Source: Clostridia bacterium (GTDB lineage: Bacteria; Bacillota_A; Clostridia; Oscillospirales; CAG-272). From it: a stretch of DNA of 7,641 nt. Shown here one piece after another: positions 783-2,396 of this stretch (position 1 is the stretch's first letter; each line of letters begins with the position of its first letter). The DNA lies in NCBI GenBank assembly GCA_017472105.1, contig JAFUQY010000240.1, positions 1-7,641 on the forward strand. Reading direction: 5' to 3'. Both the position numbers and the translations under genes were made by a program. Below the pieces are notes generated by a model. The model was not told where the DNA came from. It saw nothing but the letters and a program-made list of their open reading frames with translations, and did not search any database.

Positions 783-817
783 GCGTCCGGCTTCCGGCTG
801 ACAGAATTTGAATAGCA

Positions 818-853
818 AAAAGCTCTGATTCAGAAAAATGAGTCAGAGCTTTT
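818..853. terminator. Bidirectional intrinsic terminator between convergent genes
   Basis: A 14-bp stem (818-831 with 840-853, one G:U pair) closes an 8-base loop. The stem carries AAAA at its left end and TTTT at its right end, so it gives a U-run after the hairpin on either strand. It lies 36 bases past the pnp stop and just after the stop of the minus-strand gene, so it can end both transcripts. Confidence 0.9.
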
Positions 854-859
854 CTGTAT

Positions 860-2272
860 TCAGCGATGGCTGAGCATTTCATCGTAGACCTTCATGACTT
901 CGTGAAAGGCTTCGGGATAACGGAGTTTGTACCACTGATAGATCATCGAATCCCGGGTGTAGCGGATGCTGTCCGATTTCGGGAAGATATACTTCCCCTT
1001 GCACATCGAATCGATGAACCATTCCGGTATCTCCAGCTCCAGAAGTGCCGCACGGACGGACTCGCTCATGCCGTTTTTCAGGTAACTGCCGCGCCGGGCG
1101 TGATCCGTCACCGTGACTGCGAATCCGTAATCGGTACAGCCGCGCCGGATCATGGCATCGCGGACCGTACAATAGATATCCTCGCGGCATGAGATCAGCT
1201 GATCCAGAGGGATTCCGGCTTTCAGCAGATCTATGCCGTTGTCCAGCCATAATCCGATTGCATGTGTGAAGCCCGTGATTTTTGCCAGCTGTGCAAAATT
1301 CTGAGGTTTCGAGGTTTCAATCACCTGGCGGGAAAACCGAAGTCCCATGTCGGGGAGTCCCTCGCAGTCCGCGTTCAGCAGATGCTCAAGGACGTCGGGA
1401 GCGAGATAATCAATCCGGTCTGCGGATGTGTTTGTCGCCTGCTCCAGAAGATACATGGCTTCCCGGACCGGCTGTGCGATTGCGCGGAGGTAGACCACAG
1501 GATTCCGGAAAGCAAAATGGAATTCATTGGCGTTGTTGATCAGCGGTGTTTCGGCGGCTCCCGGATAATTGCGGAAAAATTCCGTGGCGGTCTCTCTGAA
1601 CTGACAGTCCGAGAGGATGCCGTAGTATTCGGGCAGCTGTATCGTGACATCCGGCGGAATGCTGTGACCGTCCCGATCCATCGCCGTGCCGCAGGTGCAG
1701 GTTTTCGGCGGCAGATCGTATCCGTCGGTGTATTCCGGGACAAATTCGAGTGTCCTGCACTTCGGGCAGTAATAGTGCGCCGGCAGCGGATTGACCGGAT
1801 GCAGTCCCAGGAGATACAGGGCAAAAGCGGAAGTGCGGTAGCCGTAGATCGAGAACCGGTGCCCCGTGCTGTCCGCAAGCTCCTTCAGCTCACGCAAAAC
1901 CTGCATGGCAAAATAGTACGACGGACTTTGCAGCTCATTCCGCTCCGTTTCCAGCCGGTTCACCACGGTCAGAGGCGGAGTTTCGCCGTATTTCTCGTGC
2001 AGTGCGGAGTCCACGCGGTTCCAGAATTCAGTTTTCATTCGATTGGTTCCTTTCCTGTTGTCTTCCCAGCCGCAGAACAGCAGGTCGTCCAATGAGACGT
2101 TCAGCACATCCGCGAGCTTGGGCAGAATTCCGCTCTGAGGCATGGAAAGACCGCATTCCCATTTGGAAACCGCCTTGCCCGACAGCCCCAGAAGCTCACC
2201 GAGACGTTTCTGCGAGAGTCCCCGCCGCCGTCTCAGTTCGTATAAGTATAGTCCGAAAGAATCAGCGTTCAT
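860..2272 (-). CDS. XRE-family HTH protein fused to a degenerate PolC-like DNA polymerase domain
   Basis: The 470-residue protein has two parts. Residues about 7-64 are a Cro/C1 (XRE) helix-turn-helix with the recognition-helix motif GKAVSKWE. Residues about 100-460 match, in order, segments of PolC as I recall that family: RLETE before the palm; YLLGLHPVNPLPAHYYCPKC (PolC has EVNPLPPHYVCPNC); GYDLPPK, then CTCG and DGHSIP (PolC GFDLPDK, CPRCG, DGHDIP); FSRQVIETSKPQNF near 313-326; LWLDN near 341; SCREDI at 361-366 (PolC GCRDDI); IPEWFIDS at 415-422 (PolC VPEWYIDS); and KYIFPK at 427-432 (PolC KYMFPK). The palm aspartates seem lost, and exonuclease, PHP and C-terminal parts are absent, so polymerase activity is unlikely. 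The ATG start has GGGAGG five bases upstream. It is probably a DNA-binding regulator; ligand and targets are unknown. The homology call is from recognition, not a computed alignment. Confidence 0.85.
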   Translation of the reverse strand: MNADSFGLYLYELRRRRGLSQKRLGELLGLSGKAVSKWECGLSMPQSGILPKLADVLNVSLDDLLFCGWEDNRKGTNRMKTEFWNRVDSALHEKYGETPPLTVVNRLETERNELQSPSYYFAMQVLRELKELADSTGHRFSIYGYRTSAFALYLLGLHPVNPLPAHYYCPKCRTLEFVPEYTDGYDLPPKTCTCGTAMDRDGHSIPPDVTIQLPEYYGILSDCQFRETATEFFRNYPGAAETPLINNANEFHFAFRNPVVYLRAIAQPVREAMYLLEQATNTSADRIDYLAPDVLEHLLNADCEGLPDMGLRFSRQVIETSKPQNFAQLAKITGFTHAIGLWLDNGIDLLKAGIPLDQLISCREDIYCTVRDAMIRRGCTDYGFAVTVTDHARRGSYLKNGMSESVRAALLELEIPEWFIDSMCKGKYIFPKSDSIRYTRDSMIYQWYKLRYPEAFHEVMKVYDEMLSHR

Positions 2273-2277
2273 AATTA

Positions 2278-2283
2278 CCTCCC
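2278..2283 (-). promoter_or_regulatory. Ribosome binding site of the HTH-PolC-like gene
   Basis: GGGAGG on the minus strand, five bases before the ATG at 2272-2270. It supports the full-length start that includes the HTH. Confidence 0.8.
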
Positions 2284-2286
2284 ACG

Positions 2287-2305
2287 TGGTACTTCTATGA
2301 TACCA
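2287..2305. promoter_or_regulatory. Candidate operator (inverted repeat) over the -10 of the HTH-PolC-like gene
   Basis: TGGTA-N9-TACCA is a perfect 5-bp inverted repeat whose centre and right arm overlap the minus-strand -10 box (2297-2302). A second short palindrome, CCACGTGG, abuts it at 2282-2289. XRE regulators commonly repress their own promoter from such sites; that this protein binds here is inference. Confidence 0.5.
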
Positions 2306-2325
2306 TACCGATGCCCGTTTTGCAA
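2297..2325 (-). promoter_or_regulatory. Sigma-A-type promoter of the HTH-PolC-like gene
   Basis: On the minus strand TTGCAA (2325-2320) and TATCAT (2302-2297) are separated by exactly 17 bases. The predicted start of transcription is near 2290, giving a short leader of under 20 bases that holds the GGGAGG site. Confidence 0.65.
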
Positions 2326-2396
2326 GGCGGTGCTGTCTCCCGGCGGTGGAACTTTCCGGCGTTCACGAACATTTTACGACTTTTTCCACGGGGGAC

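Follow-up and report, generated by a model that had tools for sequence, protein, structure and literature searches.

A gene joining an XRE helix-turn-helix to a PolC-derived domain

The window analysed here, a 7,641-nucleotide (nt) stretch from a Clostridia bacterium, carries on its minus strand (860..2272) a gene for a 470-residue protein with an ATG start, in which an XRE helix-turn-helix (HTH) is fused to an apparent pseudopolymerase made of the palm and fingers of the replicative polymerase PolC, most of the thumb being absent. We call this the HTH-PolC gene. Ahead of its ATG and on the same strand are a ribosome-binding-site-like GGGAGG read from the sequence (2278..2283), a promoter-like site placed by consensus match only, TTGCAA-17-TATCAT with a TG preceding the -10 box (2297..2325), and an operator-like imperfect palindrome, TCCAC-CGCCG-GGAGA (2336..2350), which has one mismatch to TCYAC-N5-GTRGA and stands 10 nt 5' of the -35 box. 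The gene is followed by a terminator-like hairpin with a T-run (817..854, minus strand), common to it and to a convergent pnp-like gene, with a folding energy of -24.6 kcal/mol with flanks (808-864) and a z-score of -6.5. The first-pass annotation had described a unit with its own promoter and terminator, and both elements are present, the promoter-like site at 2325-2297 being weak by itself (six such sites were observed in the window for 4.2 expected).

Profile and structure matches bear out the view, taken from the sequence at first pass, that a duplicated and diverged PolC fragment was joined to an HTH. The N-terminal XRE HTH, earlier placed at residues 7-64, is matched by Pfam HTH_3 at residues 10-64 (2081..2245, minus strand) with E=1.1e-11, which exceeds the cut-off, and fold matches agree on a Cro/CI-type HTH. 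The seven motifs that had been listed in PolC order occur in that order, starting at residues 161, 184, 201, 313, 361, 415 and 427. Pfam DNA_pol3_finger matches residues 275-349 with 23.9 bits against a cut-off of 22, and the NCBIfam PolC models NF001688 (E=8e-53) and TIGR01405 (E=1.8e-48) also match, with scores well under their full-length cut-offs, as expected for a fragment; no clear match to an unrelated characterised family was found by this profile check. Structures of PolC are matched over two colinear stretches, residues 92-208 and 298/304-456/457 (9qpc, E=4.1e-39; 3f2b, E=5.7e-37). The predicted fold, a confident model, superposes on PolC over residues 76-469 and matches PolC 826-1309 only, so that the homology proposed at first pass holds and extends beyond the two stretches matched in sequence. 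Since the model superposes across 76-469, an arrangement of two separate PolC blocks around an unrelated insert was rejected, and residues 209-303 are a diverged palm. In PolC the palm is interrupted by the thumb (PMC12592400), and here the thumb has mostly been excised. The profiles and the model together show a predicted product that consists of an XRE DNA-binding domain and a PolC palm-fingers domain without most of the thumb and the catalytic aspartates.

In the window, all on the minus strand, this domain comprises the N-terminal part of the palm with a degenerate GS motif, assigned by homology and fold superposition (residues 76-160; 1793..2047), the palm zinc knuckle with Cys169, 172, 192 and 194 (residues 161-208; 1649..1792), the diverged catalytic palm, assigned by fold and alignment, in which catalytic Asp are lost and the thumb is largely excised (residues 209-303; 1364..1648), and the fingers (residues 304-470; 863..1363; best structural stretch 304-456/457), in which His337, Arg363, Tyr428, Phe430 and Lys432 are retained. 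About 395 residues of PolC core are thus present, compared with a PolC protein of about 1,400. The OB, exonuclease, PHP and helix-hairpin-helix (HhH)/clamp-binding parts of PolC are absent, besides most of the thumb, catalytic Asp are lost, and an HTH is gained.

Residues retained and lost relative to true PolC

For comparison with true PolC, sequences were aligned with MAFFT and residues were tallied over 22 HTH types, including the window protein, beside 13 PolC, with numbering of E. faecium PolC from PMC12592400. From the 59 PolC-like open reading frames (ORFs) in the loci, the core alignment took 15 full-length or partial PolC, 13 of which entered the tally, and four truncated forms; homologue alignments held 33 sequences from the first search (A1) or 66 plus the window protein (A2). 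The three catalytic aspartates are described as absolutely conserved across the whole C family (PMC3919608). Among the HTH types, neither the D972 column nor that of the third aspartate holds Asp in any sequence (0/22 each), and the D974 column holds Asp in nine and Glu in seven of the 22. Because the catalytic strand can be aligned only to within about two residues, at most one Asp may survive, and we limit the claim to the loss of at least two of the three. The four zinc-knuckle Cys and the preceding His are found in 22/22 HTH types, and Cys169, 172, 192 and 194 are invariant across the alignments of 33 and 67 relatives. When retention by region was expressed as the PolC-invariant columns present in at least 80% of the HTH set, the zinc knuckle kept 15/17, the fingers 10/55, the N-terminal palm 7/35, and the catalytic palm (0/20), the C-terminal palm (0/17) and the thumb (0/18, of which 13 are deleted in most HTH types) none. 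This pattern of retained and lost residues points to a pseudopolymerase that is maintained for something besides synthesis and in which the zinc knuckle is the best-preserved part.

A nucleotide or replication-status sensor, in which the fingers pocket binds a dNTP (deoxynucleoside triphosphate) or other nucleotide and the protein acts as an allosteric one-component regulator with a regulon, has to be judged against the same tally. Residues near the nucleotide/inhibitor site of PolC are largely kept (Tyr1274 19/22, Phe1276 19/22, His1185 14/22; all three are pocket residues in PMC12592400), as are the Arg of the CRD/CRE motif (22/22) and the Lys of FPK (21/22), whereas the catalytic Asp are lost, the GS-motif Arg (9/22), His1280 (8/22) and Tyr1284 (9/22) are kept in a minority, and retention of the fingers as a whole is low. 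Of the candidate signals suggested at first pass (dNTPs, primer-template DNA, replication status or a PolC-directed inhibitor), dNTPs are not singled out by conservation, the zinc knuckle being better kept than the fingers, and the pattern does not appear to favour simple dNTP sensing. We regard such a sensor as distinctly unlikely, also in view of the operator distribution given below.

The drift of the catalytic palm and of most PolC-invariant finger columns is what would be expected if the PolC fold were merely a stable dimerisation or scaffold domain of a plain autoregulator that senses nothing. Such a protein is harder to reconcile with the near-complete zinc knuckle, the specific finger residues retained and the low rate of amino acid change reported in the next section, and a regulator of itself alone requires another benefit to spread; we consider this explanation unlikely.

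The HTH-PolC family, its phylogeny and selection

The first search returned 81 relatives of the window protein, and a profile search returned 277 clusters at E<=1e-15, with HTH_3 in all of the best 120 of the 277. A scan of genome contigs gave 17 HTH loci among at least 80 loci, in Clostridia and, judging by titles, many from ruminant gut, so that the architecture looked for in other Clostridia was found in many; one relative (L013) is in the named isolate Fusibacillus kribbianus YH-rum2234. Within the family of genome G001, 6 of 196 sampled genomes carry an HTH-PolC gene at E<=1e-45. A class-wide profile search matched 358 of 391 genomes, mostly through true polC and with at most three candidates scored per genome, and is not a census of the family. 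PolC itself scores above the curated cut-off in 16 of the 18 genomes that carry a relative (16 with HTH types and two with HTH-less forms), and 15 of these 16 PolC-positive genomes carry HTH types. The remaining two genomes have two complementary PolC pieces on two contigs (G012) and a piece at a contig end (G017).

In an IQ-TREE phylogeny built from 405 columns for 49 sequences, without P0073 and P0075 (ultrafast bootstrap taken from the Newick string), the HTH types, together with the HTH-less P0056, P0057 and P0062 nested among them, are split from true PolC, truncated paralogues and P0076 with an ultrafast bootstrap of 100. Since they are nested among HTH types, the HTH-less forms are best explained by secondary loss of the HTH or by truncation of the gene call. 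The truncated PolC paralogues P0060, P0061, P0074, L030 and L037 branch between true PolC and the HTH-PolC family and are sequence relatives of the latter; they differ in keeping the thumb and nearly all catalytic Asp positions and in having no HTH, and PHP is annotated for P0060 and P0074. Together with L020, these truncated forms consist of palm, thumb and fingers, with PHP where annotated.

The ratio of nonsynonymous to synonymous change (dN/dS) of the PolC part, estimated by the Nei-Gojobori method among nine related genes, is about 0.08-0.20 in 32 of 36 pairs; pairs above 55% identity were used, L008 was left out, and synonymous sites were saturated in the other four pairs. The conservation of amino acids implied by these ratios shows, as far as sequence comparison can, that the HTH-PolC gene belongs to a selected family, in line with the earlier description of the gene as a functional unit and not debris. 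A pseudogene or chance similarity was ruled out by the PolC profile matches, the fold superposition, the tree and the low dN/dS. Were the gene an HTH joined by chance to a piece of a polC pseudogene, the lost domains and catalytic residues would be accounted for; set against a monophyletic family of many members with low dN/dS, a conserved operator position and a confident fold, such debris is almost certainly not the explanation.

Some members are organised differently. At L018 (9033-11128), an HTH-less relative of 365 amino acids overlaps the end of an AAA/TniB-like ATPase gene by 4 nt and a weakly DnaA-like ORF precedes, and the HTH-less loci L017 and L021 have small conserved neighbours in common; these loci may represent a different, operon-based use of the same domain. 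P0147 (663 amino acids) begins with part of sigma-70 region 2, continues through an apparently translated operator-promoter region and then enters the HTH-PolC frame, and is either a cassette inserted in a sigma-factor gene or an assembly join. In P0068 the N-terminal part of HTH-PolC continues into GAF and GGDEF domains, possibly through chimeric assembly.

A conserved palindrome upstream of HTH-PolC promoters

For the gene in the window, 18 related genes and L010, we scored the upstream sequence separately for the best -35/-10 pair and for TCYAC-N5-GTRGA. The palindrome is exact in 12 of these 20 regions, has one mismatch in the window and two in L007 and L177, and in 20/20 regions a best-scoring candidate ends 10-11 nt 5' of the -35 box (in L010 and L177 the fitting palindrome is one of two tied candidates). 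For example, the L010 region has TCTACCGCAGGTTTC, with three mismatches, 10 nt ahead of TTGCGG, and in L008 both arms are changed symmetrically (TCCAC/GTGGA). Because eight of the exact cases are close relatives (L002, L003, L005, L006, L014, L015, L135 and L176), independent evidence for the operator comes mainly from L001, L008, L009 and L012. Taken alone, the palindrome of the window is not significant (a match occurs in 76 of 200 shuffles), and its weight derives from the conservation of its position in 19 relatives. This arrangement strongly suggests autoregulation, in which the HTH would bind the palindrome adjoining the -35 box of its own gene on the 5' side and so control synthesis of the protein. 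The operator centre lies about 55 bp ahead of the start site predicted by counting from the -10 box, a distance at which an activator would be more usual than a steric repressor.

The strict form of the operator, TCTACCNNNGGTAGA, occurs in nine copies in 8 of 11 genomes, each just 5' of an HTH-PolC gene, compared with two for the reversed control. Of the 11 strict sites in a second 11-genome set, which overlaps the first and includes G441 and G522, 10 are at HTH-PolC genes. A wider regulon using the operator with one mismatch was considered and rejected, the second set containing 45 such sites in total (11 of them strict) compared with 66 for the reversed control. Since this number is below the control and nearly all strict sites are at HTH-PolC genes, there is no sign of a wider target set with this motif. 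The lack of recurrent strict sites beyond the gene's own promoter in the two 11-genome sets also speaks against the nucleotide sensor with a regulon.

Cassette limits and horizontal transfer

The limits of the conserved unit were mapped by blastn among ten loci of the best-sampled branch. Upstream, similarity starts at -83 to -85, the operator edge, in 23 of 36 locus pairs and at -33 in two. Downstream, it stops within the interval from 4 nt ahead of the stop codon to 40 nt past it, approximately the terminator position, in 24 of 28 pairs and continues to +102 to +238 in the other four; seven pairs have additional short patches. HTH-PolC proteins of these genomes are also far more alike than their PolC proteins (pairs above 45% identity were compared). 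Those of G004, G005 and G006 are 94-96% identical compared with 64-67% for PolC, and G002, in which cassette and polC are on one contig, shares 86-87% with these three compared with 55-57% for PolC. At synonymous sites, the cassette genes of L005, L006 and L014 differ by 0.17-0.25 per site in their PolC part, and polC differs by 0.75-0.82. Unless several bins are wrong, these values indicate horizontal transfer. G004 has two HTH-PolC copies that are 73% identical. L004, which has no upstream region, and L135 share an identical 100-nt overlap and probably represent a single gene divided between contigs.

The limits and identities together show, at the level of sequence, that in this related branch operator, promoter, ORF and terminator are transferred horizontally as one single-gene cassette. 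This apparent mobility and the near-exclusive location of the relatives' strict operator at their own promoter go beyond the first-pass annotation.

Horizontal movement could also be expected of a replisome antagonist, that is, a selfish or stress-response mimic that would slow replication by competing with PolC for DNA or a replisome partner, and the conserved PolC core fold and zinc knuckle fit this role. Against it, the thumb is largely gone and the protein stops after the fingers, ahead of the tandem HhH and clamp-binding parts, which come after the core in PolC (PMC3919608), and no conserved neighbour was found by eye beside the HTH types. We rate an antagonist as quite improbable.

Genomic neighbourhood and searches of mobile-element collections

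In the window, one neighbour of the HTH-PolC gene is a polynucleotide phosphorylase-like gene, present as its 3' part and carrying KH and S1 domains. On the other side lies a VanY-type carboxypeptidase gene, and beyond it are genes for an HtrA-like protease, with trypsin-like and PDZ domains, and for a response regulator; the following ORF is histidine kinase-like by eye only and has no Pfam match at 1e-5. Inspection of the 17 HTH loci by eye revealed no recurring neighbour at the same place, whereas three HTH-less loci have neighbours in common.

Comparison with PADLOC gave matches of 113 neighbours, from 14 of the 17 HTH loci, to 64 families and of 117 control proteins to 39, and in both groups HTH-type matches were the commonest. 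The controls came from 14 regions around one-mismatch operator sites in some of the same genomes; these regions are not strictly random. A closer look at 10 of the 113 neighbours gave one match, to an HTH. When three HTH-PolC proteins (window, P0034 and P0009) were compared with this library, which holds described systems only, the best stretches of all three ended by residue 102. Within 6 kb of cassettes there are strong single matches to the phage-defence candidates PDC-S04, PDC-S45 and PDC-S72 and to mad3 (9.9e-60), stronger than any shown for the control set (best 3.1e-23), in numbers too small to judge. Two matches to DDE transposases and five to sigma-70 region 4 also occur among cassette neighbours.

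A viral origin was rejected, as all 23 loci of a viral scan match only within residues 1-96, on the HTH side. An origin in phages or plasmids was likewise rejected for the collections searched, since in none of the 22 phage and 19 plasmid records matched by tblastn does a single place account for 80% of the query; the best 15 of the 22 phage and the best 15 of the 19 plasmid matches start at residue 80 or later, and the annotated plasmid entries among the matches listed are mostly PolC or DNA polymerase III. Four Lactococcus plasmid records of 178-211 kb (H16-H19) carry PolC-like genes whose match to the window protein spans residues 89-456.

A proposed self-regulating PolC mimic

We favor, tentatively and at somewhat less than an even chance, a self-regulating, mobile one-gene cassette whose PolC-mimic product is itself the effector. 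The HTH would occupy the palindrome at its own promoter; the pseudopolymerase domain would be bound by a factor that engages PolC, which could be a nucleotide, DNA, an inhibitor directed at PolC, or a protein of a phage or element; binding would alter occupancy of the promoter by the HTH; and the amount of mimic able to sense or titrate that factor would be adjusted. Because the gene stands alone and the strict operator occurs almost nowhere else in those genomes, its product may itself act as the effector, imitating PolC and thereby sensing or titrating a factor that engages the polymerase, although this part is weakly inferred. It is also conceivable, if rather unlikely, that the cassette is a mobile one-gene guard, in which a decoy of the replicative polymerase with an autoregulatory HTH would detect or sequester natural inhibitors, or proteins of phages or elements, that target PolC, its own level being adjusted when one is bound.

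Several observations weigh against the self-regulating cassette. The window's own operator is imperfect, with its one mismatch, five upstream regions (L010, L011, L013, L016 and L019) have three mismatches and retain mainly the left half-site, and many of the 20 regions are close kin and hence non-independent. One strict operator, at L181 (G441:C9:64278), lies away from any HTH-PolC gene, and sites looser than the consensus could make a wider regulon. Upstream similarity extends beyond the cassette, to -107 to -291, in 11 of 36 pairs. The Lachnospiraceae-type genomes G011, G013 and G016 have no transfer excess (55-71%, compared with 64-65% for PolC), mis-binning could inflate the transfer signal, which is possibly exaggerated because most loci come from metagenome bins, and the cassette limits and transfer are seen only in a branch that is 34-37% identical to the window protein. 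Finally, the neighbouring genes at 14 of the 17 HTH loci form no clear defence islands, and the phage, plasmid and viral collections searched yielded no HTH-PolC copy; other collections may differ.

Relation to known regulators and inactivated polymerases

XRE/Cro-CI one-component regulators such as P22 c2, SinR, ImmR, C-proteins and Stl differ from HTH-PolC in that its remainder is a pseudopolymerase and it has hardly any strict sites at other genes; Stl-type control offers a comparison for its possible mode of action. BirA, PutA and TipA are enzyme-derived transcription factors or autoregulated drug-binding regulators, and WhiA is related to homing endonucleases. These proteins resemble HTH-PolC in the reuse of an enzyme fold in a regulator, and to our knowledge none of the four originated from a replicative polymerase. 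Inactivated polymerases include ImuB and B-family cases. An inactivated Y-family polymerase, iPolY, and PolX with an inactive polymerase site are described in PMC12926913 and resemble HTH-PolC in keeping a polymerase fold without catalysis; among the inactivated polymerases in the available part of that paper, none is a C-family protein or an HTH regulator, unlike HTH-PolC. C-family polymerases are classified in PMC3919608 and PMC12926913, and the survey in PMC3919608 removed fragments without an intact active site. The term helix-turn-helix is absent from the available text of both papers, as is HTH from that of PMC12926913. In the literature searched by keyword (top titles, with subscription journals mostly outside the scope), we found no description of a dead C-family replicase reused in a regulator.

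PolC is a drug target in clinical development (PMC12592400), and the spectrum of a PolC inhibitor is the subject of PMC11963600. The occurrence of a relative in the named isolate F. kribbianus YH-rum2234 makes this a testable system. If the HTH-PolC protein is a sensor or decoy of PolC, it would show how cells watch their own replisome, would point to natural PolC-directed attackers and would provide a ready reporter for ligands of the PolC palm-fingers region.
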